Shown piece after piece: positions 14,001-33,764 of a DNA stretch of 64,000 nt (positions within the stretch are counted from its first letter, which is position 1; each line of letters starts with the position of its first letter). Location of the stretch: positions 6,516,001-6,580,000 of the forward strand of contig NZ_CP027706.1 of assembly GCF_003850565.1 (NCBI RefSeq). The letters are read 5' to 3'. Origin of the DNA: Pseudomonas sessilinigenes. Its GTDB lineage: Bacteria > Pseudomonadota > Gammaproteobacteria > Pseudomonadales > Pseudomonadaceae. The notes beneath the pieces were generated by a model. It worked only from the letters and a program-made list of their open reading frames with translations, searched no databases and had not been told where the DNA came from. The position numbers and the translations under genes were made by a program.

Positions 14001-17000
14001 CACCGCCACGCCCTTGGGCAAGCCGGTGGAGCCGGAGGTGTAGATCACATAGGCCAGGTTTTCCTCGGCCAGATCCACCTCCGGGCTGGTCGCAGGATAG
14101 GCCGCAAAATCCGCCGCGCCTTCGACGCTGAGGGTCGGCAAACCGTCCGGGATCGGCAAGCGCTCCAGCAGGTGATCCTGGGTCAGCAGCAGCCACGCGC
14201 CGCTGTCCTGCATCATGTAGCGCAGGCGGTCCTGGGGGTATTCGATATCCAGCGGCACATAGACACCGCCGGCCTTGAGCACCGCCAGGAAGGCCACCAT
14301 GATCTCCGCGCAGCGCGGCATGGCAATGGCCACCCGTACCTCCGGGCCCACTCCCAGCTCGATCAGCTTGTGCGCCAGTTGGTTGGCTTGCGTATCCAGC
14401 TCGCGATAGCTCAGGCGCTGCTCGGCGAAGAACACTGCCGGCGCGTCCGGGGCCTTGGCCGCCTGATCGGCGAACAGTTGATGGACAAAGCGGTGAGTCG
14501 GGTAGACCACATCGGTGTGGTCCCACTCCTGGCGAATGCGCCGCTGCTCGTCCTGGTTCAGCATCAGCAGCTCGCCGATCGCTTGCTGCGGCTCGAGCAT
14601 GCCCTGCAGCAGGTTTCGCCAATGATCGGCAAGACGCTCGATAGTCGAAACCTCAAACAGCTCGCCGGCGTAGATGAACGATGCATTGATCCCCGCGTCA
14701 GTCTCCAGGGTCTCCAGGGTCAGGTCGAATTGCGCCGTGCCGCCCTGAAGGACCATTTCTTGCGCCACAAGCCCTGGCAGGCTGGTGCCATCGGTACTTT
14801 CTCCGGCGATGCTCAAATGGTTGTACATCACCTGGAACAGCGGGTTCTGGTCCAGCGCACGCTGCGGCTTGAGGGCATCCACCAGGCGATCGAATGGCAG
14901 GTCCTGGTGGGCCTGGGCGGCCAACGCGGTCGCCTTCACCTGGCGCAGCAACTGCCCTACGACGAGGCTCGGCGCCAGGTCGACGCGCATGACCAGGGTG
15001 TTGACGAAGAAACCCATCACGCCTTCCATTTCCTGGTGGCGTCGATTGCTCACCGGAACCCCGATGCGGATATCCGGTTGATCCGAGTAGCGATGGAGCA
15101 AGAGCGCGAAGGACCCGAGGAACAGCTGGAACAGCGTCATGTCGTGGGCCTGCGCCAAGCGGCGCAGCCCTTGCTCCAGATCCACCGGCAAACGCAACCC
15201 CAAACGCTCCTGCCGATGGCTGACCAGCGCCTGGCGCGGGTGATCCACCGGCAGCTCCAGCACCGGGTGCTCCAACCCCAGTTGCTCGCGCCAGTAGTCC
15301 AGCTGGCGCTGCTGCTCTCCTTGCTCGAGCCAGGCCCGATGCCAGCTGGCATAGTCGGCGTACTGCACGCTCAACTCATCGAACTGCGCAACATGTCCCT
15401 GGACGAAGCCGCGGTAGAGCGCAACGAATTCCCGCGCCAGCACACTCATGGATGCACCATCGGAAATGATGTGGTGCAGCGTCACCACCAACAGGCAGTC
15501 CTGCTCCGCAATCTGCAGGACGCGGGCCCGACACAGCGGCCCGCGCTCCAGATCGAACAACTCCTGGGTCTCTGCCAGGGCGCGAGCCCGGATCGCCTCG
15601 TGGGACAGGCCCGGGGCAAGACTCTCCCAAGCCAGGGCAATCTCGCCCTGAGGGTGTACGACCTGGCACAGGGAGTCCTGGTTCTGGGTAAAAGTGGTGC
15701 GGAAGGCTTCATGGCGCTGTACCAGGACCTGGAAGGTCTGCCGCAGTGCCTCCGGGTCCAATACCCCCTGGAGCCGCACGATGATCGGTGTGTGATAAGC
15801 AGTGCTGTGCGGGTGCATCTGCCAGAACAACCACTGCCGCTGCTGGGCATGGGACACCGGCAGCGGCACCCCACGCTGCACGGCCTCGATGGTCGGCAGG
15901 CTAGCGGCGGCACAGTTCTGCACCTGCTCGACGAACTCGTCCAGGCGCGCCGTCTCGAACAGCACGCGCAAGGGCACATCAGCCGACAACAGCCGCCGCA
16001 CGCGAGAGATAATCTGGGTCGCCAGCAATGAATGGCCGCCCAGGGCAAAGAAGTTGTCACCCAGGCCTACGCGCTCGACCTTGAGTACCTCTTGCCAGAT
16101 CGACGCAATCCGCTGTTGCAGTTCGCTGACCGGCGCCACATGGACCTCGACCGATACCTGCTGTTGCAACGCAGGCAGTGCCCGCATATCCAGCTTACCG
16201 TTCGGAGTCAGTGGCATGTGCTCCAGCGCCACGAAATGCATGGGCACCATGTAGTCCGGCAACGTTGTGGCCAGTTGCCGGCGAATCTCCTGCCAGGCCT
16301 CCTCCGCCACCAGCCCCCCGGCCAGTACGACATAGGCCGCCACTTGCGGCTCATCGGCCGGCCGCACCACCTGCGCCACCGCATCCTCGACCCCGGGCAG
16401 TTGCTTGAGGGCAGAGGTGATCTCACCCAGCTCGATACGGTAACCACGAATCTTCACCTGATGGTCGATTCGCCCCAGGTAATCGAGCATGCCATCGTCC
16501 AGGTAACGCGCCAGATCCCCGGTCCGGTACAGGCGTTGGCCATCGCTGAAGGGGTCAGGGACAAAGCGCTCGGCAGTCAATGCCGCCCGGCGATGATAGC
16601 CACGCGCCAGCCCAGCTCCGCCCACGTAGAGCTCGGCAGGAGTGCCAGCGGCCACCGGTTGTAACGATGCATCCAGTACATGGGCACGCACGTTGGCCAG
16701 GGGCAATCCCAGGGGCACCACAGCCCGCGCATCATCCACCACGTCAGCGGCCATGGTCAGGGCGCCCACCGTGGTTTCCGTCGGGCCGTAGTGGTTGAAC
16801 ACCGCGCATTCTGGTGCCAATGCCTTGATTCTCGCTACCAGCCCGGTGGGGCAAGCCTCCCCTCCCAGTACCAGGCACTGCCTTGGCAAGGAACGCGCCG
16901 GCTGCTCGCACCCCATCAGCGCCAGCAGATGCGAAGGGACGATCTTCAACACGTCGATCTGCTGCACATGCAGATAGGCCGAAAAGGCCTCGGCATCCAA

Positions 17001-19190
17001 GCCGGTATCCAGATCGATGATATGCAGGCAACTACCGGAGCACAGGGCGCCGAACAACGTGGTATGCCCCAGGTCGGCGGCAATGGTCGAGACCACCGCC
17101 ATATTGCGCGCAGCCCCCAGGGGCAGGCGCTGGATGATCGCCTGCACGTAGTTGGCCAGGGCTCCATGGGAAATGCTGACCCCCTTGGCCGTGCCAGTGG
17201 AACCTGAGGTGTAGATCGAGTACGCCAGGTTCGCCGCCTCGACCCGCGGTAGCGTGGCCGAATGGCCGACAATCGGGGCCCAGTTATCCGGGCGGTCCAG
17301 CAACAGGACACCGACCTGGCTCGCCACGGGCAAACGATCCTGGACCCGGGACTCGCTCAACAACAGACGCACGCCACTGTCCTCGAGCATATGGCCCAGG
17401 CGTTGTTCGGGATATTGCGGGTCCAGCGGCACATAGGCACCACCGGCCTTGAGTACCGCCAGCAAACCGACCACCATTTCCAGCGAGCGCTCCACGGCGA
17501 TGCCCACCGGCACCTCCGGCCCCACTCCACGCGCCAGGAGAGCCACGGCCAGTCGATCGGCTTGCTGTTCCAGCTCGCGGTAGGTCAATACGCGCTCACC
17601 GAATACCAGGGCCGGCGCATCGGGCTGCAAACGAACCTGCTCACTGAACAGGTCGAGCACCGAATCGGCGCTGAATGACTGGACCATTCCGGCGCCCCGA
17701 TCCAGGGTTTCGCGGACCTGGCCGGCATCGAGTAGCGTCAGCTCGGCAATCGCCGAGTGCGGCTCGCGCACCATCGCCCACAGCAGGTTCTGCCAATGCC
17801 CCGCCATGCGCTCGATGGTCGACTGCTCGAAGAGCTGGCAGTCGTAGGTAAAAGCCGCTTGCAGGCGACCACCACGCTCGAAGGTATCCAGCGTCAGGTC
17901 GAATTGTACGGTTCGCTCGTTGCGTGGCAGTGCCTGTACCTCCAGCCCCGAACGACTGCGCAAGGCGGCCAGTTCGGTAACTTGCGGCTGATGGTTGTAA
18001 AGCACTTGGAACAAGGGGCTGTGGCTCAGGCTGCGCTCCAGCTGCAACGCCTCCACCAGGCGTTCGAAAGGCAACTCCTGATGAGCCTGCGCACCCAGGG
18101 TGGTCTCGCGGATATCGGCCAGCAATTGCTCGACCGTCACCTGCGGGCTCAACTCCGTACGCAACACCTGGGTATTGACGAAAAAGCCGATCAAGCCTTC
18201 GGCTTCCTGGCGCGTGCGGTTGGCGATCGGCACACCGACACGGATATCCTGCTGACCGCTGTATCGAGACAGCAGCAGCTTGAACCCAGCCAACAATACG
18301 GCAAACAGCGTCACTCCCTGCTTGCGGGCCAAGCCCCCCAACTGCTGGGCCAGGGAAGGGTCCAGGTCGAGGTCCAGACGGCGCCCCTGACGGCTGGAAT
18401 GGGCCTGGCGCGGATGATCGGTCGGCAGTTGCAGAACCGGATGCTCGTCCCCAAGCTTCGCCCGCCAGTACTCCAACTGCCGCTCCTGCTCTCCCGCCTC
18501 CAGCCAGCTGCGCTGCCACAAGGCATAGTCGCGGTACTGGATCGGCAAGGCCTGGACATCAAGGGATTCACCCTCGACCAAAGCATCGTAGGCACGCAGG
18601 AATTCCTCGATCAGCACCCCCATCGACCAACCATCAGCAACGATGTGGTGCAAGGTCAGGAGCATGACATGCTCCTGCGCGCCCAACTCCAACACACAAA
18701 CCCGTAGCAACGGCCCTTGCTGCAGATCGAAAGGCCGGCGAGCCTCGGCATCGGCCCGCAGCTGTACTTCAGCCTCGCGCTGCTCGGGAGCGAGCCCACA
18801 CAGATCCTGGTGGTCGATAGCCACCCGGGCCTCCAGGATGACTTGCCGAGGCTCGTCTTCTTCCAGACGAAACACCGTGCGCAGACTCTCGTGGCGGTCC
18901 AGCAACCAATCGAAGGCCCGGGCCAGCAGCCCGCGATCTAAAGGCCCTCGCAGGCGGACAGCGTTCGGCAGGTTGTAGGCGGCACTCTGCGGATCGAGCT
19001 GCCAAAGGAACCACATGCGCTGCTGCGCATAGGACAGCGCCTGGCGGCCAGGTACAGCGACCTCCGCAGGAATAGGCAGCAGAGAGAAATCGACACCTTC
19101 CTTGTCCAGCGCCTTCAAGAACAGCCGACGCTTTTCCAGCGGCAGTTCAATGAATCTGCGGGCGAGCTTCAAGGAGTCTTCTGCATTCAT
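8043..19190 (-). CDS. pvdI: Pyoverdine synthetase PvdI, three modules with one epimerase domain
   Basis: NRPS of 3715 aa with order C-A-T / C-A-T-E / C-A-T. The start MNAEDSLKLARRFIELP matches PvdI-type proteins. Landmarks: C1 HHIVADGWS near 180; A1 TSGSTG near 660 and YGPTE near 799; T1 LGGHSLLA near 1052; C2 HHIISDGAS near 1238; A2 TSGSTG near 1717; T2 LGGDSIIS near 2115 (the GGDS form used before E domains); E HHLVVDGVS near 2306; C3 HHILMDGWS near 2777, DCL-like as expected after E; A3 TSGSTG near 3246; T3 LGGHSLLV near 3650. Hand-read pockets: A1 D-L-T-K-V-G-H-V-G, close to the Asp code; A2 D-G-E-V-C-G-G-V-T, probably formyl-hydroxyornithine, made D by the E domain; A3 D-A-E-D-N-G-T-V-S, two acids, so a basic residue (Lys favoured). 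A PvdS-type promoter lies about 60 bp upstream. A3 and A2 calls are inference. Confidence 0.92.
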   Translation of the reverse strand: MNAEDSLKLARRFIELPLEKRRLFLKALDKEGVDFSLLPIPAEVAVPGRQALSYAQQRMWFLWQLDPQSAAYNLPNAVRLRGPLDRGLLARAFDWLLDRHESLRTVFRLEEDEPRQVILEARVAIDHQDLCGLAPEQREAEVQLRADAEARRPFDLQQGPLLRVCVLELGAQEHVMLLTLHHIVADGWSMGVLIEEFLRAYDALVEGESLDVQALPIQYRDYALWQRSWLEAGEQERQLEYWRAKLGDEHPVLQLPTDHPRQAHSSRQGRRLDLDLDPSLAQQLGGLARKQGVTLFAVLLAGFKLLLSRYSGQQDIRVGVPIANRTRQEAEGLIGFFVNTQVLRTELSPQVTVEQLLADIRETTLGAQAHQELPFERLVEALQLERSLSHSPLFQVLYNHQPQVTELAALRSRSGLEVQALPRNERTVQFDLTLDTFERGGRLQAAFTYDCQLFEQSTIERMAGHWQNLLWAMVREPHSAIAELTLLDAGQVRETLDRGAGMVQSFSADSVLDLFSEQVRLQPDAPALVFGERVLTYRELEQQADRLAVALLARGVGPEVPVGIAVERSLEMVVGLLAVLKAGGAYVPLDPQYPEQRLGHMLEDSGVRLLLSESRVQDRLPVASQVGVLLLDRPDNWAPIVGHSATLPRVEAANLAYSIYTSGSTGTAKGVSISHGALANYVQAIIQRLPLGAARNMAVVSTIAADLGHTTLFGALCSGSCLHIIDLDTGLDAEAFSAYLHVQQIDVLKIVPSHLLALMGCEQPARSLPRQCLVLGGEACPTGLVARIKALAPECAVFNHYGPTETTVGALTMAADVVDDARAVVPLGLPLANVRAHVLDASLQPVAAGTPAELYVGGAGLARGYHRRAALTAERFVPDPFSDGQRLYRTGDLARYLDDGMLDYLGRIDHQVKIRGYRIELGEITSALKQLPGVEDAVAQVVRPADEPQVAAYVVLAGGLVAEEAWQEIRRQLATTLPDYMVPMHFVALEHMPLTPNGKLDMRALPALQQQVSVEVHVAPVSELQQRIASIWQEVLKVERVGLGDNFFALGGHSLLATQIISRVRRLLSADVPLRVLFETARLDEFVEQVQNCAAASLPTIEAVQRGVPLPVSHAQQRQWLFWQMHPHSTAYHTPIIVRLQGVLDPEALRQTFQVLVQRHEAFRTTFTQNQDSLCQVVHPQGEIALAWESLAPGLSHEAIRARALAETQELFDLERGPLCRARVLQIAEQDCLLVVTLHHIISDGASMSVLAREFVALYRGFVQGHVAQFDELSVQYADYASWHRAWLEQGEQQRQLDYWREQLGLEHPVLELPVDHPRQALVSHRQERLGLRLPVDLEQGLRRLAQAHDMTLFQLFLGSFALLLHRYSDQPDIRIGVPVSNRRHQEMEGVMGFFVNTLVMRVDLAPSLVVGQLLRQVKATALAAQAHQDLPFDRLVDALKPQRALDQNPLFQVMYNHLSIAGESTDGTSLPGLVAQEMVLQGGTAQFDLTLETLETDAGINASFIYAGELFEVSTIERLADHWRNLLQGMLEPQQAIGELLMLNQDEQRRIRQEWDHTDVVYPTHRFVHQLFADQAAKAPDAPAVFFAEQRLSYRELDTQANQLAHKLIELGVGPEVRVAIAMPRCAEIMVAFLAVLKAGGVYVPLDIEYPQDRLRYMMQDSGAWLLLTQDHLLERLPIPDGLPTLSVEGAADFAAYPATSPEVDLAEENLAYVIYTSGSTGLPKGVAVSHGPLAMHSLATGERYEMSPADCELHFMSFAFDGSHEGWMHPLIYGASVLIRDDSVWSPEFTYEQMHRYGVTVGVFPPVYLQQLAVHAERDGNPPAVRVYCFGGDAVPQASYDLAWRVLRPKYIFNGYGPTETVVTPLIWKAKAGDPCDAAYAPIGNIVGNRSAYVADANLNLLPVGVAGELYLGGLGVARGYLDRPGLTAERFIPDPYSTTGARLYRSGDLTRYRTDGLVEYVGRVDHQVKVRGFRIELGEIEARLLEQDPVLEVAVIAQPGPSGQQLVGYIVPVDAEVASSNERQAQLRESIKARLRESLPDYMVPTYLLFLEALPLTPNGKLDRKSLPKVDAQLMQQTYVAPQNELEQQIAAIWADVLKLEQVGVTDNFFELGGDSIISIQVVSRARQAGIRFTPKDLFQHQTVQGLATVAEQGEGGLQIDQGPVRGQMPLLPIQQWFFETPVPERHHWNQSVLLKPLKTLSAKALEQGLHALLEHHDGLRLNFVEKTPAWVATYTPLGQVTSAPLAAMQTDALLWLADNVTEGSLPSLCDAAQRSLELQQGPLLRAVLFTLQDGSQRLLLAIHHLVVDGVSWRVLLEDLQQALAQQAAGQAIKLPAKTSSFQSWAGQLQAYAGSAALQQELGYWQAQLQGVESDLPCDRATGQTVLQDALSVSTELDQIHTQRLLQDAPAAYRTQINDLLLTALARVITRWTGQDSALVQLEGHGREELFNSIDLSRTVGWFTSVFPVKLTPQPALADSIKFIKEQLRAVPNKGLGFGVLRYLGDEAAQQTLAALAVPRITFNYLGQFDGSFDEPDAWFAPSAEAKGRDQDAQAPLGNWLSINGQVYGGQLKLGWTFSQAMFDSTTIQCLADDYARELKALIEHCSQPEHRGVTPSDFPLAGLNQQQLDQLPLALAEVEDLYPLSPMQQGMLFHTLYEQGAGDYINQLRLDVDGLEPERFRQAWQAAIDSHDILRSGFLWQGELPAPIQVVSKRAHLDFVEHDWRATEFAPAALDGLAEEERLRGFDLLAAPLLRLTLVRTGEKRHHLIYTNHHILMDGWSNSRLLGEVLQRYAGQFASQVPGRYRDYIAWLQRQDATLSEHFWKQQLATLDEPTRLAQAISRSDQAPTGQGYAAYQQHLDLQQTQRLSEFARQQKVTVNTLVQAAWLLLLQRYTGQDTVVFGATVSGRPAELKGVEQQIGLFINTLPVVAAPRPDMPVGDWLQLVQERNLALRDFEHTPLYEVQRWAGLGGEALFDNILVFENYPVSEALAQGAPAQLSFGVAANHEQTNYPLTLSVYLGQTLAFDYSYALEHFGQANIQQLAAYLQQLLMVMVEQPQCSIGELSLIGATERGLIEQQRSRIPARHLSPLCVQQLVEVQAEQTPDALALLCAGQQLGYGQLNQRANQLAHKLIELGIGPDVRVGIAVERGLEMIVGLLAVLKAGGAYVPLDPEYPQDRLHYMMQDSGIQLLLTQSPLLERLRGAVEIPHLCLDSYQQGFEGYSLENPSPRAQADNLAYVMYTSGSTGRPKGVGISHSALSQHAQVSRDYFNMSAADRGLQFSTFNFDAFVEQLYPALICGASVVIRGKELWDSETFYRELIEQGISIVDLSTAYWFMLGKDFAAGEPRDFGRLRQLNLGGEAMAAEGVAAWKKAGLKHACLLNTYGPTEATVSVTTHDCSRYLQDGEALPSQIPLGKGLPGRSIYLLDNSGNLTLSGATGELMIGGELLARGYHDRPGLTAERFIPDPFSTDGGRLYRSGDLARYDADGVVEYAGRIDHQVKIRGFRIEMGEIEARLLEQMQVREAVVLAQEAAGGPQLVAYLVAAAGVAADSQEDQAQLREQLREALKEVLPDYMLPAHLLFLEALPLSPNGKLDRKALPQADASFWQQAYIAPESELEQQVAAIWAQVLEVEQVGMNDNFFELGGHSLLVTSMVSRVQLKLGRQVSVQMAFEFPTLGLFVNQLQQAAGQVQSADLSALELLLDEMEAV

Positions 19191-19273: not shown

Positions 19274-19341
19274 ACTCCGCGCACCGCCCAAACGACCAAT
19301 GCGCATGCCTCTACAGGCCACTGGAGGGTCAGCGGCGGCGG

Positions 19342-19365
19342 TAAATCCACCCAGTAATCCTTCGT
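19342..19365 (+). promoter_or_regulatory. PvdS-type (iron starvation) promoter, exact match
   Basis: TAAAT at 19342-19346, 16 nt, CGT at 19363-19365: an exact fit to the PvdS box. It faces the siderophore-interacting flavoprotein and lies 36 bp before the chosen start at 19401. It would lie inside the coding region if that gene began at the in-frame ATG at 19299, which argues for the later start. Confidence 0.75.
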
Positions 19366-19400
19366 TTCTTCTTCAATCCTTCCAGCAGCAGGTAATGCTC

Positions 19401-20369
19401 ATGTCTTCCGCCCAATCGCTGACCGACATCCTCGCCCAAGGCTTGCGCAAACTGACCGGTATCGACCGACCAAAACCCAAGGGCTACCGGGTGATCAACG
19501 TCGAACTCAAGCAGCGCATTGCCCTCAGCCCCTCCCTGGTGCGCCTGGTATTCAGCGGCGATGACATCGCCCAGGCCCGCACCCTGGCCCCGGACCAGCG
19601 CATCAAGCTGCTGTTTCCCGCGGCCGACGGTAGCCCCCCGCAATTGCCGGTGGAGGGCGACTGGCATGCCGTGCGGCGCAAGCTGCCGAGCGAGCAGCAA
19701 CCACCGATGCGCACCTACACCATCCGAGCGCTGCGCCTGCAACCGGCGGAGCTGGATGTGGACTTCGTGCTGCATGGGATCAATGGGCCGGCTTCGAGCT
19801 GGGCCACTTGTGCCCGGCCAGGCGACCGCTTGCAAATGGTGGTGCCGAACAAGGCCTTCAGTGGCGACCCCGGCGGCTATGAATGGATTCCACCGAGCGG
19901 CATCCGCAAGGTTTTGCTGATGGGTGACGAAACCGCCCTGCCTGCCATTGCCGGGATTCTCGAAGAACTCAAGCAATACCCGGACTACCCGGATGTGCAG
20001 GTGTTCATCGAGGTACCCCACGAACATGACTGCATCGAGCTGGGCTGCCACCCGCTAACCCGGTTGAACTGGCTGCCTCGCGACCTGCTCGACGCCCAGC
20101 ATGGCGAACCCTTGATCCATGCCGCTCGGGAGCTGGCCGAGCTGCCACCACCCAGCGCTGGAAGACGACCGGTCAAGAATGCCGGGCGCGACGAACAGGA
20201 ACGTCCTTGGGAAACCGCAGCGCCAGCGGACAACCAGTTCTATGCCTGGGTCGCCGGCGAATCGGCCACGGTGATGAAGATCCGCCGCCATCTGATCAAC
20301 GAGCGCGGCCAGGAGCGGCGCAACCTGACCCTGATGGGTTATTGGCGCATGGGCACTTCGCTGGGTTGA
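19401..20369 (+). CDS. Siderophore-interacting protein, FAD-dependent ferric-siderophore reductase family
   Basis: 322 aa protein of the SIP/ViuB/YqjH group, cytoplasmic flavin reductases that release iron from ferric siderophores using NAD(P)H. Evidence: the FAD-binding motif MRTYTIRAL near residue 103, a central GDETALPAI segment typical of the NAD-binding half, and a C-terminal YWRMG end. ATG 19401 is chosen over in-frame ATGs at 19395 and 19299 because AGGTAA sits just upstream and an exact PvdS box lies at 19342-19365. It is divergent from pvdI, so it is probably induced with pyoverdine. Substrate (ferripyoverdine or another siderophore) is not shown by sequence. A stretch after residue 250 rich in Pro, Arg and Glu looks like a linker insertion. 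Confidence 0.85.
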   Translation: MSSAQSLTDILAQGLRKLTGIDRPKPKGYRVINVELKQRIALSPSLVRLVFSGDDIAQARTLAPDQRIKLLFPAADGSPPQLPVEGDWHAVRRKLPSEQQPPMRTYTIRALRLQPAELDVDFVLHGINGPASSWATCARPGDRLQMVVPNKAFSGDPGGYEWIPPSGIRKVLLMGDETALPAIAGILEELKQYPDYPDVQVFIEVPHEHDCIELGCHPLTRLNWLPRDLLDAQHGEPLIHAARELAELPPPSAGRRPVKNAGRDEQERPWETAAPADNQFYAWVAGESATVMKIRRHLINERGQERRNLTLMGYWRMGTSLG

Positions 20370-21320: not shown

Positions 21321-22493
21321 TCAACGCAAACGCCGATAGCTTTGCAGCGCCGCGCCCAACACCACCCCTCCACCGGCCAGGGCCAGCCAGAAACCGCTGC
21401 GGGCACCGAAGTGATCCACCAGGGCGCCGGAACCCGCCGCCCCCAAGGCCACGCCAATACCCAGGCCGGTGACCAGCCAGGTCAAACCCTCGGTGAGCTT
21501 GGCCGGCGGCACGATACGCTCCACCAGGGCCATGGCCACGATCAGGGTCGGGGAGAAGAACAGCCCGGCGACGAACACCGCCAGCGACAGGCCGAGGACG
21601 TTGCCGGCCAGCAACAACGGCAAGGTGGTGACGGCCGTGGCGATGCCGCTGTACATGAACAAGCGGGGCAATGGCGTGGACAGTTTCAAGGCCCCGAAGG
21701 CGATACCCGCCAGGCACGAACCGGTGGCGTACATCGACAGCACGATGCTCGCCGCCGCCGGTTGCCCCTGTTGCTGGGCAAACGCAACGCTGACCACGTC
21801 CACCACGCCGACAATGGTGCCCATGGCCGTCATCAGCAACAGCAACATGCGGATCTGCCCGGAACGGATGATCGACCCCGAATGCTCTTCGTCATGGGGA
21901 TGGACCGGCGGCTCGGTGGATTTCTGCACCACGAACAGCCCTACCCCCAGCGCCAGCATCAGCAGCGCCACCAGCGGTCCGGCCTCGGGAAACAGGCCGA
22001 CGCTGAGGCCGACCGAGATCGGCGGGCCGACGATGAAGCACACCTCGTCCAGCACCGACTCCAGGGCGTAGGCGGTCTGCAACTGCGGCTGCCCTCGGTA
22101 CAGTTCGGTCCAGCGGGCCCGGACCATGGCCGACATGCTGGGCATGCAACCGGCGAGGGCGGCAAAGAGGAACAAGGTCCAGTGCGGGGCCTGCAAGCGG
22201 GTGCACAGCAACAGCGCCAGCAAGGCGCCGCCACCCAGCCCGGCCGCCACAGGCAAAACCCGGCCCTGGCCGAAGCGGTCCACCAGGCGCGAGACCTGGG
22301 GCGCACAGAATGCCGTGGCCAGGGCGAAGGTGGCCGCCACCGAACCGGCCAGGGCGTAGCCGCCGTGCAACTGCGCCAGCATGGTGATCAGGCCGATGCC
22401 GGTCATGGAGATCGGCATGCGCGCGATCATCCCGGCCAGCACGAACGCCCGGCTGCCGGGGGCCTTGAACAACTCGCGGTAGGGGTTTGCCAT
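21321..22493 (-). CDS. MFS transporter, probable TetR-controlled exporter
   Basis: 390 aa inner-membrane protein with about 12 hydrophobic helices in two halves separated by a hydrophilic loop rich in His and Glu (HPHDEEHSG). The overall pattern is that of the major facilitator superfamily; no close named relative is recognised. ATG 22493 is used because AAGGAG lies 9 nt upstream; an in-frame upstream extension would run into the operator region. The gene is divergent from a TetR repressor with two palindromes between them, the usual layout for drug or metabolite efflux. It lies between the regulator and the thioesterase, but nothing in the sequence proves a role in pyoverdine export. Confidence 0.8.
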   Translation of the reverse strand: MANPYRELFKAPGSRAFVLAGMIARMPISMTGIGLITMLAQLHGGYALAGSVAATFALATAFCAPQVSRLVDRFGQGRVLPVAAGLGGGALLALLLCTRLQAPHWTLFLFAALAGCMPSMSAMVRARWTELYRGQPQLQTAYALESVLDEVCFIVGPPISVGLSVGLFPEAGPLVALLMLALGVGLFVVQKSTEPPVHPHDEEHSGSIIRSGQIRMLLLLMTAMGTIVGVVDVVSVAFAQQQGQPAAASIVLSMYATGSCLAGIAFGALKLSTPLPRLFMYSGIATAVTTLPLLLAGNVLGLSLAVFVAGLFFSPTLIVAMALVERIVPPAKLTEGLTWLVTGLGIGVALGAAGSGALVDHFGARSGFWLALAGGGVVLGAALQSYRRLR

Positions 22494-22540
22494 GTACAAC
22501 GACTCCTTATGGGTCCTCAGGGCGGCTTTGCAGTAGCTAC

Positions 22541-22588
22541 ACATACGCCGCGTATGTTAAAAAGCATGAAAACATACGCCGCGTATGT
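22541..22588. promoter_or_regulatory. Duplicated 17-bp palindromic operator, TetR type
   Basis: The sequence ACATACGCCGCGTATGT occurs twice, at 22541-22557 and 22572-22588. Each has 7-bp perfect inverted arms around CCG. The copies are 31 bp apart, about three helical turns, so two dimers would lie on the same DNA face. The pair is placed between divergent start codons at 22493 and 22619, where it could block both promoters. Confidence 0.8.
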
Positions 22589-26623: not shown

Positions 26624-27529
26624 ATGCCCAGCCCAGCCGCCCTGCATCACGCCACCACTGCCAGCCTGCATATCGCCTACGAGGAACACGGCCCGCGTGG
26701 TGGCGAGCCGGTGATCCTGCTGCACGGTTTTCCCTACGATCCACGGGCCTACGACGAGATCGCCCCGCCCCTGGCCGAGCGCGGCTATCGAGTGATCGTG
26801 CCGTACCTGCGCGGCTATGGGCCGACGCGCTTCACCCACCCGGGGATCATGCGTTCCGGGCAACAGGCGGCACTGGCCCAGGACCTGCTGGAGCTGATGG
26901 ATGCCCTGCAACTGCCCACGGCCACCCTGGCCGGCTACGACTGGGGCGGACGCGCGGCGTGCATCGTCGCGGCCCTCTGGCCGCACCGGGTGCGCGGCCT
27001 GATGAGCGCCGACGGCTACAACATCCAGAACATCGCCAAGGCCTGTGAGCCCCGGGCTCCGGAAACCGAGCTGCAGCTCTGGTACCAGTATTACTTCAAT
27101 ACCCAGCGCGGGGTGGACGGCCTGCGCGCCAACCGCCAGGAGTTCTGCAAGCTGCTGTGGCGCCTGTGGTCGCCGACCTGGCAACAAGGGCCCGGGCTCT
27201 ATGGGTTGAGCGCGCCGTCCTTGGACAATCCGGATTTCGTCGAGGTGGTGATCCACTCCTATCGCCATCGCTTCGGCTACGCCCCGGGCGATCCGGCGCT
27301 GGAACCCATCGAGCAGGCGCTGCTGGCCCAGCCGCCGATCCAGGTACCGACCATCGCCCTGTGCGGCGCCGACGATGGCGTCGGTGCGCCGCTGGTGCCG
27401 GACCCCGACGGCCCGCAGTTCACCCGCGGTTATGAACGGCGGATCTTGCCCGGGGTCGGCCACAACGTGCCCCAGGAGGCGCCGCAAGCCACCCTCGAGG
27501 CCCTGTTGGAACTGCTGCAAGACGCTTGA
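26624..27529 (+). CDS. Alpha/beta hydrolase, epoxide hydrolase/dehalogenase-like
   Basis: 301 aa. HGFPYDPRAYDEIAPPLA gives the oxyanion-hole HG motif near residue 34. The nucleophile elbow is AGYDWGG, with Asp near residue 107 in place of Ser, as in epoxide hydrolases and haloalkane dehalogenases. CGADDGVG and PGVGHNVPQEAP near 275 supply the acid and the His of the triad. No signal peptide. It stands 59 bp after the secreted protein and 77 bp before a membrane-protein operon, so it may have its own promoter. Substrate not predictable. Confidence 0.82.
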   Translation: MPSPAALHHATTASLHIAYEEHGPRGGEPVILLHGFPYDPRAYDEIAPPLAERGYRVIVPYLRGYGPTRFTHPGIMRSGQQAALAQDLLELMDALQLPTATLAGYDWGGRAACIVAALWPHRVRGLMSADGYNIQNIAKACEPRAPETELQLWYQYYFNTQRGVDGLRANRQEFCKLLWRLWSPTWQQGPGLYGLSAPSLDNPDFVEVVIHSYRHRFGYAPGDPALEPIEQALLAQPPIQVPTIALCGADDGVGAPLVPDPDGPQFTRGYERRILPGVGHNVPQEAPQATLEALLELLQDA

Positions 27530-27606
27530 AGAGCGCGACTGGCGCACGCCATGGCGGGGGAAAAATCGGTACACTGCGCGACCTCGATCCCCCCACAGGA
27601 CATGGA

Positions 27607-28080
27607 ATGTTATCCGCCGCCTCTTCTTCACGCCCTGGCCTGCGCCGGGGCCTGGTGCTCTGGCTGTACGCCGCCGGCGCCGGCCACTTGCTCGCCGGCC
27701 TGCTGCTGACCTGGGCCGGCCACCAGGCGCTGTTCAACGACTACCTGGCCACTATCGAACAAGCCTTCTGGGGCGCCGCCGCCCCGGCGCCGGCCCGGGC
27801 CCAGCAGGTCTGGTGGCTGGGCCTGTTCGGCGCCACCCTGCAAAGCTACGCCCTGTACCTGCTGGCCCTGGTGTACCTGGGCGATCGCCTGCGCGCGCCG
27901 GCGGCCTGGGCCTGGCTGATGGCCGGGATCGTCCTCTGGGCGCCCCAGGACATGTGGCTGTCCTGGCAGGTGGGCATGTCGTCCCATCTGTGGATCGACA
28001 GCTTCGCCCTGCTGGTGCTGCTGCCACCTTTGGCCTGGCTGTACCGCCACGACCGCCTTACCTCTCGCTCTCTTTCGTAA
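27607..28080 (+). CDS. Small integral membrane protein, first gene of the hydrolase-dikinase unit
   Basis: 157 aa with four hydrophobic helices (about residues 14-32, 58-83, 92-112 and 120-138) and a basic C-terminal tail. No family is recognised. ATG 27607 is chosen because ACAGGA lies 10 nt upstream and the earlier in-frame start gives a polar extension unlike a membrane protein. It ends 15 bp before the next gene, so it is probably part of a three-gene operon. Its helices contain Trp-rich stretches (WAPQDMWLSWQ), but there is no motif that shows a function. Confidence 0.75.
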   Translation: MLSAASSSRPGLRRGLVLWLYAAGAGHLLAGLLLTWAGHQALFNDYLATIEQAFWGAAAPAPARAQQVWWLGLFGATLQSYALYLLALVYLGDRLRAPAAWAWLMAGIVLWAPQDMWLSWQVGMSSHLWIDSFALLVLLPPLAWLYRHDRLTSRSLS

Positions 28081-28095
28081 AAGGACTTCATCATC

Positions 28096-29538
28096 GTGGC
28101 TGACTTGCCGTTCCTGCAGTGGGCCGTCGCCCTGCTGCTCGCCCAAGGGGTGCTGGGCGCCCTGGACACCCTCTACCACCACGAACTCACCGTGGCCCTG
28201 CCGCAACGCCACAGCGCACGCAAGGAACTGAGCATCCATGCCCTGCGCTCGTGCTTCTACGGCGTGCTGTTCATGGGCATCGCCCACCTGGCGTTCCAGG
28301 GCATCTGGGCCTTGGTGATCGCCCTGCTGTTCGCCCTGGAGATCGGCCTGACCCTGTGGGACTTCGTGGTCGAGGACCGCAGCCGCAAGCTGCCGGCCAT
28401 CGAGCGCATCATGCACACGGTGCTGGCGATCAACGCCGGTGCCTTCTTCGCCTTGTACGGCCTGCAACTGCTGGAATGGTCGCGCTTGCCCAGCGCCCTG
28501 GCCCCTATCGACCTGGGCTGGCAGGGCTGGGCCCTGAGCCTGTTCGCCGTGGGCGTGAGCGCCTCGGGGATTCGCGATGGCCTGGCGGCCCTGCGCCTGC
28601 AACGCCAGGGGCAGGCGATCAATCCGTTCACCGGCGGCGCAGGCAAGCGGGTGCTGGTCACCGGCGGCACCGGCTTCATCGGCGAAGCGCTGGTCAACCA
28701 GTTGCTCGACGCCGGCCATACGGTCAGCGTGCTGGCCCGGGACCCCTTGCGCGCCGCCTACCTGTTCGACGGTCGCGCCCGCTGCCTGCGCTCTTTGGAC
28801 AAGCTGGGCCATGGCGAAGCGTTCGACGTGATCATCAACCTGGCCGGCGCCCCGGTGGCCGGGCCGCGCTGGTCGGCCAAGCGCCAGGCACAACTGCTGG
28901 CCAGCCGGGTCGGCACCACCGAAGGCCTGCTCAATTGGCTGCAACACGCCCAGCACAAGCCGGCCCTGTGGATCCAGGCCTCGGCCATCGGCTTCTACGG
29001 GGTGCGCGATGCCAGCCAGGAACTGGATGAAGACGCCGAGCGCGGCGAAGGCTTCATGGCGGATTTGTGCGCCCGCTGGGAGTCCTCGGCCGAGCCCGCC
29101 AAACGCTTCGGCGTACGCCAGGTGGTGCTGCGCCTGGGTATCGTGTTCGGCCCCGGCGGCGCCCTCAAGCCGCTGCTGATGCCCTTCTACTTCGGTTTTG
29201 GCGGACGCATGGGTGATGGCCGGCAGATCATGAGCTGGGTGCACCGCGACGATGTGCTGCAAGTGATGGCCCGCGCCATGCGCGACGAATCCCTGGAGGG
29301 CACCTACAACCTGGTGGCCCCGGATGCCGTGAGCCAGGGGCAGTTCGCCGAGAGCGTCGGCCAGTTGCTCAAGCGCCCGGTATGGCTGCATGTACCCTCA
29401 GCGCCGGTGCGGGCTCTGGCCGGGGAAATGGCCCAGCTGTTCTTCGATGGCCAGAAGGTGGTGCCGGCGCGGCTGTTGCAGGCCGGCTACCGCTTCCGCT
29501 ACCCGACCCTGGACAGCGCCCTGCGCGATCTGGCCTGA
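28096..29538 (+). CDS. Membrane-anchored NAD-dependent epimerase-like protein (TIGR01777/SDR39U1 family)
   Basis: 480 aa in two parts. Residues 1 to about 175 form a membrane domain of four or five helices. It has a cluster of polar residues: LDTLYHHEL near 23, ELSIHALRS near 45, WDFVVEDRS near 92 and ERIMHTVLAIN near 105. Residues 186-480 are a short-chain dehydrogenase with VLVTGGTGFIGEAL, the usual INLAGAPVAGPRW segment of TIGR01777 (YfcH-like) proteins, SAIGFYG, and a C-terminal DUF1731-like tail. The GTG start follows AAAGGAC. It sits between a small membrane protein (15 bp) and the hydrolase-dikinase fusion (14 bp). Most relatives I know lack the membrane part. Substrate unknown. Confidence 0.8.
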   Translation: MADLPFLQWAVALLLAQGVLGALDTLYHHELTVALPQRHSARKELSIHALRSCFYGVLFMGIAHLAFQGIWALVIALLFALEIGLTLWDFVVEDRSRKLPAIERIMHTVLAINAGAFFALYGLQLLEWSRLPSALAPIDLGWQGWALSLFAVGVSASGIRDGLAALRLQRQGQAINPFTGGAGKRVLVTGGTGFIGEALVNQLLDAGHTVSVLARDPLRAAYLFDGRARCLRSLDKLGHGEAFDVIINLAGAPVAGPRWSAKRQAQLLASRVGTTEGLLNWLQHAQHKPALWIQASAIGFYGVRDASQELDEDAERGEGFMADLCARWESSAEPAKRFGVRQVVLRLGIVFGPGGALKPLLMPFYFGFGGRMGDGRQIMSWVHRDDVLQVMARAMRDESLEGTYNLVAPDAVSQGQFAESVGQLLKRPVWLHVPSAPVRALAGEMAQLFFDGQKVVPARLLQAGYRFRYPTLDSALRDLA

Positions 29539-29552
29539 ACCGAGGAGCCTCG

Positions 29553-31991
29553 ATGAGCAAGCCCCTGTTGTACTTGCTGGCGGGCAACGGCAGCGCCAGC
29601 GACTGGTGGGACGATGCCGTACCGCACTTTCGCCGTTATCGAGTGCAAACCCTGGAACTGCCGGGGTTCGGCGACAACCCACAACCACCGTGCGACGACC
29701 TGGGGCAGTACGCCGAGGCCCTGCTGGCGCTGACCGCCCCGGGCAACGCCATCGTCGCCGTGGGCATCAGCGCCCTGGTGGTGCTGCATGCCTTGCAGCG
29801 CCGTCCCGGGCACTTCTCCCGCAGCGTGCTGCTGTCGCCGGTGGGGGCCTTCCTCTGGCAGCGGCGCCTGCCGGCGTTGATGTCGCCACTGCCGGTGCGG
29901 CTGTTGATCCACCGCTTGCTCGGCCAGCGTCCGGCCTGGTTCGCCCACAAGTTCTCGCGCCAGCGCTGGAGCCCCCAGCAGTACCGGCGCATGGGCGCAG
30001 GTTATGCCCGCTGCCGGGCCTTCGTGCCGCTGTGGGAGCAATTGCGGGCCGACACCGCGCTGCCACTGCTGGAATGGATCGAAGACCCGGTGGAGCTGGT
30101 CTGGGGTGATCAGGACCAACTGCTCGGCAGCGCCCAGGCCGCAGCCTGGAGCGCGATCCTGGCCCGCGCCGACCTGCGGGTCAGCCTGCGCCCGGGCTGG
30201 GGCCACTACCCGTGGATCGATGCGCCGGCCGAGTTCGTCGCCTGGATCGAGGCGCCCAACGATGGCTTCGTCGCCCACACCAAGGGCGGGCGCCTGCATC
30301 TTGCACAATGGGCCGGCCAGCCGGTGCCGGCCGCCCTGAGCCTGGACAGCGCCGAGGATCCGCGCCTGCCATCGCTGCTGGCCAGCCAGCCCGATGCCCT
30401 GTGGGCCGTGCGTTCCTCCAGCTATGGCGAAGACCAGGCCGACTCGGCCAACGCCGGGCTCAGCACCACCTACCTGCGGGTGGCCGCCAGCGAAGTGGCG
30501 CAACGCATCAGCGAACTGCGCCGGAGCGGGGTCGAGGAAGTGGTGGTGCAGCGTTTCGTCCAGCCGGTGCTGTCGGGGATCGCCTTCGTGCGCCACCTGG
30601 CGGTGGAACTGGAATGGGTCGAGGGCCACCTGGAAAGCCTCGCCGATGGCCAGGCCAGCCCCGAGCGGGCGGTGCTGTCGCGCCTGGGCCAGGCTTGGGA
30701 AAGCGGCACCTTCACCACCCGCCACGGCCTGTCTGCCAAGGCCTTGTGGGACTTTCTGCAAGGGGTGCTGAAGGTTTTCCACTACGTCCCCGGCGACATC
30801 GAGTGGGCCTGGGATGGCCAGCAACTGTGGCTGCTGCAATACCGCCCGATCAGCGACTACGGCTGGCGCCGGCACCTGACCGCGGCCAACATCGCCGAGA
30901 TCCTGCCACCACAACCCAGCCGCTTCGTCGAGTACGGCCAGCGCCGGGCAGCGGCCAGCATCCCGGCGATCATGGCCCGCTGGGACAGCCGGGTACTGGA
31001 GAACAACGAGCCGTTTACCGCCCTGTTCGGCGGCGCCTCCTACATCAACAACGACCTGTTCCTGGCGCGCCTGGCGGATTGGGGCCTGCCCTCCTCCGGT
31101 TATGCCGCCGAAGTCGGTGGCGCGGCCCCGGCCCTGCCCTTGCGGCCCCTGCGCCTGCTGCGTTCGCTACCACGCCTGCTGCGCATGCAATTCATCGCCC
31201 GCAGCCACCTGCTGAGCCTGGAACCGGGCCTGCGGCGCTTCGAACGGGAACTGGCGCAACTGCGCGAGGCCGGGGCCTCGGGCCAGGAACTGGCGGACTG
31301 GTTCAGCCGCTTCTACGTGTTCGTGGTCCAGGGCAACCTGTGCATCGCCACGGCCCTGGCCAGCAGCGGTGGCGCCCTGCTCGGTCGCCCGCCCACCGCC
31401 TACGACAACCTGGAGCACAGCCCCCATCGGTTGCCCTGGGAAACCGATCCCGGCACTGCGCGCCCAGCATGCGCGCCGCTGCCATTGCAGGCGTTCCCAA
31501 GCTGGAGCCCGGCCGTCGCCCTGGCCCATCGCCTGGGCCTGCCGGGCATGCGCGGCTACTACCTGCAAGTGCGCGAATGGTACCGGGACAACCTGATGCG
31601 CCTCTTCATGGGCCTGCACCATGCACTGCCCGAGGCCGATCGCGACTACTGGTTCGCCCCCCACGAACAGGTGCGCAGTCGCGGTGGCAGCTTCTGGCAG
31701 GACGGCCGCGAAGGCAGCGAGCAGGCCAGTGGCTTCATGATCTACCCGGGCCAGGCCCAGGGCATCCTCGGGGTGGACATCCTCCTGGAGGACACCCTCG
31801 ACCCCGGTCGGCATGCCCACTACCAGCAGGCGCGGGCAGTGATCGCACGCATGGGCGGGCGCCTGTCCCATGGCTCGACCCTGCTGCGGGAACTGCGCAA
31901 GCCCTCGGCGGTGCTGCCCCAGGTGGATCCGAGCTGGATGGGCCGCGAAGTGCACTATGTCGACGGTCAACTGAACCTGGTCCAGGACTGA
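29553..31991 (+). CDS. Fusion of alpha/beta hydrolase with ATP-grasp/phosphohistidine dikinase
   Basis: 812 aa. Residues 1 to about 235 are an alpha/beta hydrolase with a degenerate elbow GISAL (Ser73), WGDQDQ and GWGHYPW for Asp and His. Residues about 270-420 look like the ATP-grasp part of PEP synthase: VRSSSYGED (Arg287) and DIEWAWDGQQLWLLQYRPI (Asp415). About 420-730 is an alpha-helical middle part of unknown kind. About 735-812 is a swivelling phosphohistidine domain, GGRLSHGSTLLREL with His773. The C-terminal PEP-binding barrel of PEP synthase is absent, so the order recalls rifampin phosphotransferase, with the hydrolase replacing the first lobe of the ATP domain. ATG follows GAGGAG by 6 nt. 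It probably moves a phosphate to a small molecule or lipid; that is inference. Confidence 0.8.
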   Translation: MSKPLLYLLAGNGSASDWWDDAVPHFRRYRVQTLELPGFGDNPQPPCDDLGQYAEALLALTAPGNAIVAVGISALVVLHALQRRPGHFSRSVLLSPVGAFLWQRRLPALMSPLPVRLLIHRLLGQRPAWFAHKFSRQRWSPQQYRRMGAGYARCRAFVPLWEQLRADTALPLLEWIEDPVELVWGDQDQLLGSAQAAAWSAILARADLRVSLRPGWGHYPWIDAPAEFVAWIEAPNDGFVAHTKGGRLHLAQWAGQPVPAALSLDSAEDPRLPSLLASQPDALWAVRSSSYGEDQADSANAGLSTTYLRVAASEVAQRISELRRSGVEEVVVQRFVQPVLSGIAFVRHLAVELEWVEGHLESLADGQASPERAVLSRLGQAWESGTFTTRHGLSAKALWDFLQGVLKVFHYVPGDIEWAWDGQQLWLLQYRPISDYGWRRHLTAANIAEILPPQPSRFVEYGQRRAAASIPAIMARWDSRVLENNEPFTALFGGASYINNDLFLARLADWGLPSSGYAAEVGGAAPALPLRPLRLLRSLPRLLRMQFIARSHLLSLEPGLRRFERELAQLREAGASGQELADWFSRFYVFVVQGNLCIATALASSGGALLGRPPTAYDNLEHSPHRLPWETDPGTARPACAPLPLQAFPSWSPAVALAHRLGLPGMRGYYLQVREWYRDNLMRLFMGLHHALPEADRDYWFAPHEQVRSRGGSFWQDGREGSEQASGFMIYPGQAQGILGVDILLEDTLDPGRHAHYQQARAVIARMGGRLSHGSTLLRELRKPSAVLPQVDPSWMGREVHYVDGQLNLVQD

Positions 31992-31998
31992 GAGTGGC

Positions 31999-32985
31999 TC
32001 AGGAGGATTCCTGGGTGGCGGCGAAACGTTCGCGATAGGCCTGGGGCGTCACGCCCAGGGCCCGCAACACGCTGCGGCGCAGAGTCTCCTCACTGCCAAA
32101 ACCGCACTGCACGGCAATGCGCTTGATCGACAAGCCAGTGTCGGCCAGCAAGCGGCGGGCGGTTTCCACCCGGATCAGCTCGATCGCCCGGGCCGGGGTC
32201 TGGCCGGTGTCGGTGCGGTAGTGGCGCACGAAACTGCGCTCGCTCATGGCCGCTTGCTCGGCCAGCACCGGCACCGTCAGTTCCCGGTTGAGGTTCTCGG
32301 CGATCCAGGCGTGCAGCCCATCGAAACGCCCGCCACCGTTCTGCAGCGCCAGGGTCACGCTGAACTGCGCCTGCCCGCCCGGGCGCTTGAGGAACACCAC
32401 CAGTTGCCGGGCCACTTCCAGGGCTGCCTCGCGCCCCAGGTCAGCCTCCACCAGGGCCAGCGCCAGGTCGATGCCGGCAGTGACCCCGGCCGACGTCCAG
32501 ACCGGGCCGTCGTTGATGAAGATCGGGTTGGCCTCGACCCGCAATTGCGGATAGGCCTCGGCCAGTTGCTCGCAGCGAGTCCAGTGGGTCACCACCCGTC
32601 GGCCATCCAGCCAGCCGCTGGCCGCCAGCAGGAAAGCCCCGGTACAGACCGAGGCCACCCGCCGTGCCGCCCCCGCCCGGCTCGCGATCCAGGCCACCAG
32701 TTGCGGGTCACGGGCAGCCGCGTAGACCCCGCCGCCACCGGCCACGATCAAGGTATCGCAAGCCTGCTCCAGGCCCGGCAGGGGGTCGGCCAACAACGCC
32801 AGGCCCGACGAACTGAGGGTCGCCCCGCCGGGGCTTGCCACCACCCGGGGGTTATAGGGCAACGGCAGCCCCCGCTCGCGGGCCCGGTCATTGGCTGAGG
32901 CGAACACCTGCAAGGGCCCGGTGACATCCAGCAACTGGGCGTTGGCAAAAGCCAGGACAAAGACGTTTTTCGCGGTGCTGGGCAT
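31999..32985 (-). CDS. AraC-family regulator with DJ-1/PfpI-like sensor domain (FtrA type)
   Basis: 328 aa. Residues 1 to about 195 are a class I glutamine-amidotransferase/DJ-1-like domain: FANAQLLDVTGPLQVF, the VAGGGG turn, and the elbow SVCTGAFLLAA, which keeps its Cys. The C-terminal 100 residues hold two AraC helix-turn-helix motifs (VPVLAEQAAMSERSFVRHY and IKRIAVQCGFGSEETLRRS). ATG 32985 is used; an in-frame TTG at 33024 would overlap the operator. It is divergent from an isonitrile hydratase of the same DJ-1 fold, which it probably controls. The sensor Cys could detect a reactive ligand, but this is inference. Confidence 0.85.
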   Translation of the reverse strand: MPSTAKNVFVLAFANAQLLDVTGPLQVFASANDRARERGLPLPYNPRVVASPGGATLSSSGLALLADPLPGLEQACDTLIVAGGGGVYAAARDPQLVAWIASRAGAARRVASVCTGAFLLAASGWLDGRRVVTHWTRCEQLAEAYPQLRVEANPIFINDGPVWTSAGVTAGIDLALALVEADLGREAALEVARQLVVFLKRPGGQAQFSVTLALQNGGGRFDGLHAWIAENLNRELTVPVLAEQAAMSERSFVRHYRTDTGQTPARAIELIRVETARRLLADTGLSIKRIAVQCGFGSEETLRRSVLRALGVTPQAYRERFAATQESS

Positions 32986-32987
32986 GA

Positions 32988-33024
32988 TTGGCGTAAATCG
33001 AGGGCAGGTTGGCGTATGCGCCAA
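32988..33024. promoter_or_regulatory. Repeated TTGGCG sites, probable AraC-type operator
   Basis: TTGGCGTA occurs at 32988-32995 and again at 33009-33016, starts 21 bp apart (two helical turns). The second copy forms an inverted repeat TTGGCG-TATG-CGCCAA at 33009-33024. They lie between the regulator and the isonitrile hydratase, where such a protein would bind. Confidence 0.5.
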
Positions 33025-33077: not shown

Positions 33078-33764
33078 ATGGCCGTGCAGATCGGTTTTCT
33101 GTTGTTCCCAGGCGTCCAGCAACTGGACCTGACTGGCCCCTATGACGTGCTGGCGGCGCTGCCGGATACGCAAGTGCATTTGCTGTGGAAGGAGCCAGGG
33201 CCGATCAGCTCCAGTGCCGGGATGCTGCTGCAAGCCACCACTGGCTTCGCCGCTTGCCCGCCGCTGGATGTGCTCTGCGTACCGGGCGGGGCCGGCGTCG
33301 GGGCCTTGATGGAAGACCCACAGGTGCTGGATTTTCTCCGCCAGCAGGCCGCCCAAGTGCGTTACCTGACCTCGGTCTGCACCGGTTCCCTGGTGCTCGG
33401 TGCCGCCGGCCTGCTACAGGGCAAGCGGGCCACCACCCACTGGGCCTACCACGAGTTGTTGGCGCTGCTGGGGGCCATTCCCGTCCATGAACGAGTGGTG
33501 CGCGATGGCAACCTGTTCACCGGCGGCGGCATCACCGCGGGCATCGACTTCGCCCTGACCCTGGCCGCCGAGTTGTTCGACCCACAGACTGCGCAGCGGG
33601 TGCAGCTGGATCTGGAATATGCCCCGGCCCCGCCCTTCGACGCTGGCAGCCCGGACACCGCCCCCGCCCCCCTGGTGCAACAAGCCCGCCAGGCCACCAC
33701 GGCCTCCCTGAACAAGCGCCGGGAAATCACCCTGCGCGCCGCCGCCAGGTTGCAGGCCGGCTGA
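33078..33764 (+). CDS. inhA: Isonitrile hydratase (DJ-1/PfpI family)
   Basis: 228 aa, the same length as Pseudomonas putida InhA, which hydrates isonitriles to N-substituted formamides. The sequence keeps Asp17 (QQLDLTGPYDV), Cys101 in the elbow TSVCTGSLVLGA and Thr102, the residues known from InhA to be catalytic or close to the active site. The GGAG-rich site AAGGAG lies 6 nt before ATG 33078; an earlier in-frame start would enter the operator. Divergent from an AraC/DJ-1 regulator. Isonitriles arise in some secondary metabolites, so the role could be detoxification or use of nitrogen. Family call firm; substrate from family knowledge. Confidence 0.85.
   Translation: MAVQIGFLLFPGVQQLDLTGPYDVLAALPDTQVHLLWKEPGPISSSAGMLLQATTGFAACPPLDVLCVPGGAGVGALMEDPQVLDFLRQQAAQVRYLTSVCTGSLVLGAAGLLQGKRATTHWAYHELLALLGAIPVHERVVRDGNLFTGGGITAGIDFALTLAAELFDPQTAQRVQLDLEYAPAPPFDAGSPDTAPAPLVQQARQATTASLNKRREITLRAAARLQAG

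Follow-up and report, generated by a model that had tools for sequence, protein, structure and literature searches.

The window, a stretch of 64,000 nucleotides of Pseudomonas sessilinigenes DNA, holds three genes that encode a 157-aa polytopic membrane protein (mem), a 480-aa dehydrogenase-like protein and an 812-aa protein in which an alpha/beta-hydrolase-like domain is fused to a putative dikinase (Table 1). The open reading frame coordinates place all three on the plus strand, with gaps of 15 bp (mem to the 480-aa gene) and 14 bp (480-aa to 812-aa gene), in agreement with the layout that had been read from the sequence alone. For the 157-aa and 812-aa genes we took a downstream ATG as the start; the listed open reading frames begin further upstream. 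We found no promoter or terminator pattern in positions 27450-32200. The 812-aa gene is present as a single copy in its own genome, and the nearest named record that we found was from Pseudomonas piscis MC042 (99%). A gene for an AraC-type regulator with a DJ-1/PfpI domain, which scores below the FtrA cut-off, adjoins the trio (31999-33024, minus strand) and is divergent from a gene for a DJ-1/PfpI protein (33078-33764, plus strand); in 10 of the 80 loci from named genomes that are compared below, this regulator directly follows the fusion. Elsewhere in the window, the minus strand of 1456-19190 encodes a 2195-aa protein, which has two stretches of condensation type and two of AMP-binding type, and an adjoining 3715-aa open reading frame; genes for a siderophore-interacting FAD protein (19299-20369, plus strand) and an MFS transporter (21321-22544, minus strand) lie near them. 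Judged by these gene products, positions 1456-22544 probably hold a siderophore-type peptide synthetase cluster.

Table 1. Genes and domains of the three-gene locus, in window coordinates
Feature	Position	Strand	Residues and basis
mem, 157-aa polytopic membrane protein	27607..28080	+	ORF list, hydrophobic segments
480-aa membrane-bound dehydrogenase-like protein	28096..29538	+	GTG start; Pfam, NCBIfam
Membrane part of 480-aa protein	28096..28629	+	Residues about 1-178
TIGR01777 NAD(P)-binding dehydrogenase/epimerase part of 480-aa protein		+	Residues about 186-479
812-aa fusion, alpha/beta-hydrolase-like domain and putative RPH-type dikinase	29553..31991	+	Pfam, Foldseek, profile comparisons
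Alpha/beta-hydrolase-like domain	29553..30260	+	Residues 1-236; elbow residue 73 is Ser in the window
ATP-grasp domain	30261..30860	+	Residues 237-436; Lys244, Arg287, Thr306, Glu417, Gln429, Arg431
Central, presumed acceptor-binding domain	30861..31733	+	Residues 437-727
Swivel phosphohistidine domain	31734..31988	+	Residues 728-812; His773 in GGRLSHG

The 157-aa protein matched no Pfam or NCBIfam family above cut-off and no PHROG. For the 480-aa protein, Pfam (Epimerase and DUF1731), NCBIfam (TIGR01777 at 306.7 bits against a cut-off of 207.35, residues 186-476) and at least three hydrophobic segments in the preceding membrane part of about 180 residues bear out the proposal that the middle gene joins a polytopic membrane part to a TIGR01777 dehydrogenase. 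Conservation within this membrane part is strongest around DTLYHHEL and DFVVEDRSRKLP. The same genome holds a second, stand-alone TIGR01777 gene above cut-off. We rejected a phage origin, as neither mem nor the 812-aa protein matched a PHROG and the two PHROG matches of the 480-aa protein run through its common NAD-binding part; a defence system was likewise rejected, since PADLOC searches with each of the three (E up to 0.001) found no family.

Pfam recognised Abhydrolase_1, PPDK_N and the PEP-utilizers mobile domain in the 812-aa protein, the last of these narrowly (PF00391 at residues 742-787, 23.3 bits against a cut-off of 23.1). No family of the PEP/pyruvate barrel appeared at E up to 1, and no Pfam family was detected in the central domain, which opens with NxxEILP. 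We counted residues in 121 sequences, comprising the window protein and 120 listed of 247 homologues. His773 was invariant in all 121, as were Lys244, Arg287, Thr306, Glu417 and the residues Arg674, Glu675 and Arg678 of the central motif Arg674-Glu675-x-x-Arg678; Gln429 was present in 120. Pfam and these counts agree with the sequence-only reading of a hydrolase domain ahead of an ATP-grasp and phosphohistidine module that lacks a PEP barrel. The Arg and Thr of the ATP-grasp domain align with those of dikinases in profile comparisons, Lys244 was placed by eye through an ungapped extension of one hhalign alignment, and Arg674-Glu675 aligns to the known motif in one dikinase-like protein (L160) but not in another (L159), which MAFFT misplaced.

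That reading had also proposed that the hydrolase replaces the first ATP lobe, which we reject because the Lys244 motif is present and a short lobe exists elsewhere without this hydrolase. The lobe is merely shortened: Lys244 and Arg287 are 43 residues apart, and the corresponding spacing is 48 in L160 and 46 in L159. L160 starts 18 residues before its lysine; the lysine of L159 is at position 163, and the N terminus of L159 gave no blastp match to the hydrolase domain.

The resemblance to rifampin phosphotransferase (RPH) suggested earlier held up in structure and profile comparisons, with the ATP and phosphohistidine residues intact. The top three Foldseek hits of the 812-aa protein were RPH entries (851-890 alignment columns, E 1.6e-11 to 1.6e-10). 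Their TM-scores were low (0.18-0.24, rmsd 23-26 A), and the overall RPH arrangement is therefore not reproduced. A family profile of residues 237-812 matched chains of PEPS and of RPH at their ATP and phosphohistidine motifs with whole-chain E values of 1.2e-6 to 2.9e-4, each motif being weak alone and no single stretch passing for the RPH chains; against two dikinase-like proteins, hhalign gave 95.5 and 96.4%. The protein falls far under the curated cut-off of every NCBIfam dikinase model that it matched, and AlphaFold, run on residues 237-812 by themselves, gave a poor model (pLDDT 57.7), which we set aside. We looked for stand-alone dikinase relatives by searching 274 genomes of the class with the C-terminal dikinase part alone (E up to 1e-6); besides the protein's own genome, this gave one weak match, 35% over 151 residues, in a 1458-aa frame of G286.

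The N-terminal domain is a hydrolase fold in which the triad residues Asp188 and His218 are invariant across the 121 sequences and the nucleophile position is not. Residue 73 is Asn in 85 sequences, Ser in 33, the window protein among them, and Gly in 3. Conserved serine hydrolysis is unlikely because the serine is absent in 88 of 121, which puts in doubt the hydrolytic step, in its conserved form, that had been ascribed to the system. In a tree built by a quick method with midpoint rooting, and with long branches flagged, the deepest branches carry Asn, nine changes among Ser, Asn and Gly are needed, and Ser73 occurs in several Pseudomonas-rich groups, that of the window among them. The best PDB sequence match was the alpha/beta hydrolase 6i8w (E 1.6e-10), and the VIA-align list for the whole protein was taken up by this domain, leaving it uninformative on the remainder. 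Median dN/dS, from 60 pairs drawn from 1101 eligible among 74 sequences, was 0.086 for the hydrolase-like domain and 0.111, 0.082 and 0.065 for the other three, indicating purifying selection in all four. As residue 73 varies, Asp188 and His218 are fixed and the constraint equals that on the other domains, the domain has been retained, though probably not as a plain serine hydrolase.

The 812-aa protein was strongly matched (E at most 1.3e-226) in 16 of 95 genomes, the window's own included, and the 157-aa protein (E at most 1.3e-40) in exactly these 16; neither gene was found at this level in the other 79 (Fisher p 1.8e-18, for related genomes that are not independent). All 16 belong to the genus of the window, from which 59 genomes were examined. 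A further 26 of the 95 genomes gave only weak partial matches to the 812-aa protein (E 1.1e-11 or weaker), and G013, G028 and G054 gave only distant relatives of the 157-aa protein (24-29%). Because the two genes are common to the same genomes of the examined set, their products likely work together. In three of the 15 relatives (G007, G010 and G034), the 812-aa match was split in two, with the parts lying in different frames, which could reflect decay or sequencing error.

We next compared gene order in the 80 best of 128 loci that were found in named genomes. Mem adjoins the fusion in 71 of them: 26 contain all three genes, and fused or two-gene forms account for another 45. In 22 loci mem and the TIGR01777 dehydrogenase form a single reading frame beside the fusion; the 480-aa membrane part has no match there, and mem stands in its place. 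The remaining 23 consist of mem and the fusion with no dehydrogenase between, so the unit does not depend on the dehydrogenase; a search of five of these genomes (L030, L037, L009, L011 and L067) found nothing closer to the dehydrogenase domain than a 39-44% relative. Two loci, L069 (with a dehydrogenase fragment) and L075, have the dehydrogenase and fusion, and a search of both genomes, run without a positive control, found no mem. The fusion is alone at its locus in seven cases, all Burkholderia, and all seven genomes carry mem and the dehydrogenase side by side elsewhere. Flanking genes vary, with 51 different upstream/downstream family pairs in the 80 loci by a rough gene caller. A nucleoside hydrolase directly follows the fusion at L067:10442-11446 (by Pfam) and L078:10445-11449 (by likeness), and DUF169 does so at L071:10507-11274; both are lineage-specific. 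In one of the 26 three-gene loci, L080 (Rhodoferax, 6565-7998), the dehydrogenase frame carries one stop codon about three fifths of the way in and the fusion beside it is intact.

The recurrence of the gene order exceeds chance, and conserved co-occurrence and adjacency support the view that the genes form a conserved unit. Even with the variable flanks and the separate fusion of Burkholderia, homologues were not mostly separate genes in unrelated contexts, nor was the nucleotide site lacking. Of the three-gene pathway proposed from the sequence, the pairing of mem with the fusion is conserved, and the dehydrogenase is optional.

Homologues of the membrane and redox genes also occur with other partners. 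Burkholderia proteins combine the membrane part with a thiol-disulfide domain of DCC type (DCC1-like). With this membrane part as query, matches were limited to proteins of about 160-510 aa, and 103 proteins were among the matches listed: 75 with a DCC1-like domain, 14 of TIGR01777 type without DCC and 14 without a Pfam domain. The named DCC1-like membrane fusions among the 75 are mostly from Burkholderia; one of the 75 (P0195) has both DCC1-like and DUF1731 domains, and P0137 combines a DCC1-like membrane fusion with DUF2269. At L139, a DCC1-membrane fusion (7858-8733) adjoins a dehydrogenase, with DoxX-SDR, DUF2269 and MarR-like genes near, the last named by likeness to L121. The L080 row runs MarR-like, DCC-like, mem, interrupted dehydrogenase and fusion, the first two named by likeness. 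A similar row without a fusion nearby, at L121:5069-8259, consists of a MarR-like gene, a DCC1-like gene, a homologue of the 480-aa dehydrogenase and DUF4166, and seems to be an older set of redox genes. A distant mem homologue lies directly before a dehydrogenase at L119, and distant relatives adjoin an amine-oxidase-like flavoprotein at L118:1828-3925 (by Pfam) and L120 (by likeness). The 480-aa membrane part was found in 7 of 274 genomes of the class, its own included, a wider spread than that of the fusion. Because membrane and dehydrogenase homologues occur with other partners and no fusion near, the membrane protein and its redox partners look like an older gene set, which the fusion probably joined later, in Pseudomonas and Burkholderiales.

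Gene order, fusions, co-occurrence and residue conservation are the observed basis for reading the 812-aa protein as a likely RPH-type small-molecule dikinase, mem being its near-constant genomic partner and the dehydrogenase optional; we give this a probability of roughly 0.6. The enzyme would pass the beta-phosphate of ATP by way of His773 to a hydroxyl of a probably lipophilic small molecule. ATP would be held in the ATP-grasp domain by Lys244, Arg287 and Thr306, and the swivel His773 would take the phosphate with release of AMP and Pi. The swivel domain would then shift to the central domain, where Arg674-Glu675 may position the acceptor. The hydrolase fold could bind or process the same compound through His218-Asp188, mostly without a serine nucleophile. 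The membrane protein may tether the enzyme or its substrate to the membrane, and a dehydrogenase, in loci that have one, could introduce the hydroxyl or take it away through NAD(P)-dependent redox chemistry. Our statements on substrate, direction of the reaction and membrane location, the notion of a membrane-linked compound included, are inferences.

A more specific scheme, which we regard as very unlikely, would make the locus an undescribed membrane system powered by the conversion of ATP to AMP. A compound dissolved in the membrane would have a carbonyl reduced by the dehydrogenase and the resulting hydroxyl phosphorylated by the dikinase; the hydrolase fold, lacking its serine, would then eliminate the phosphate with His218-Asp188 as base. 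The fusion would then be a one-chain ATP-dependent dehydratase fed by a dedicated membrane protein.

Among other explanations, an RPH-like detoxifying kinase is unlikely but deserves consideration. Here an accessory gene set would inactivate a lipophilic antibiotic or toxin by phosphorylating it, and the membrane protein would act as a sensor or assist an exporter, which would fit the patchy spread (16 of 59 genomes of the genus, the window's own included), the 51 flank pairs in 80 loci from rough gene calls, and RPH as the closest known full-length fold. However, the model of rifamycin-inactivating RPH (NF041857) scored 14.9 bits against a cut-off of 999, and no resistance or efflux gene was recognised as recurring beside the fusion in the minority of flanking genes scanned. 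Metabolism accounts at least as well for the dehydrogenase and, elsewhere, the DCC and MarR-like genes that accompany the fusion. Combining phosphorylation with hydrolysis, as was first suggested, would require a true serine esterase in the lineage of the window, with the kinase part phosphorylating its product. Ser73 stands with Asp188 and His218 in the window protein and in 32 of 120 listed homologues, and 6i8w is the best PDB sequence match. We nevertheless consider this quite unlikely, given Asn or Gly at residue 73 in most of the family; Asn on the deepest branches and nine changes, on a midpoint-rooted tree, are not what one would expect of a nucleophile that is essential. A PigC/RedH-like ATP-driven ligase or condensing enzyme is highly improbable; in such an enzyme, phosphohistidine chemistry would activate one of two substrates, and the hydrolase domain would provide or shape the second. 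The PigC and RedH models match weakly (21.3 and 14.3 bits) over some 25 residues where the ATP-grasp domain ends, in a motif also matched in PEPS and RPH, and no partner gene of the trio hints at a second building block; membership was rejected against cut-offs of 1300 and 1350.

Among the papers listed by our searches of the open-access literature, several of which were aimed at neighbours and analogues, none describes a fusion or operon of this kind. The component pieces are already known; what looks new is the architecture together with its partners. The branch brings a strong functional context, with a near-constant membrane partner, an optional dehydrogenase and a mostly nucleophile-free hydrolase fold, and is therefore a good target for substrate discovery. 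It is also a family in which Asn mostly replaces the serine that normally defines the chemistry of this fold.

Compared with known systems, the 480-aa protein exceeds the cut-off for TIGR01777 (YfcH) oxidoreductases but differs from them in its N-terminal membrane part, and it scored 269.2 with the ThyD model, under the cut-off of 400. Unlike alpha/beta hydrolases such as 6i8w, DAD2/D14 and PhaZ, the 812-aa family is without a conserved nucleophile and is fused to a putative dikinase. The best NCBIfam match of the 812-aa protein was PRK05849/NF004508, a family that we take to include the Campylobacter L-glutamine kinase Cj1418. The match reached 34.4 bits against a cut-off of 501, spans residues 276-438 only and starts at position 53 of the profile, a hint that the ATP lobe is short. 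HpeHI, CreHI and PpsAB, which like RPH are close analogues in function, share RPH-type dikinase chemistry on small hydroxylated compounds, and AMP is the main product of HpeHI; by contrast, they are split over two proteins, and the available portion of their description mentions no hydrolase domain (PMC12167813). RPH-Lm (PDB 5hv1-3, 5fbs-u) differs in having neither the extra N-terminal hydrolase domain nor the short ATP lobe, in a central domain of roughly 440 residues against about 290, and in Lys670 where the 812-aa protein has Arg678; its curated family also lies far from this sequence. The likeness is in the order of ATP-grasp domain, acceptor domain and C-terminal swivel His, and in an Arg-Glu pair before the swivel domain, for which the alignment held in one of two comparison proteins. 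Among the functional residues of RPH given in its published account (Lys22, Arg117, Thr136, Arg666, Glu667 and His825), Lys22, Arg117, Thr136 and His825 have equivalents in the 812-aa protein, as does Glu297 (PMC4844700).
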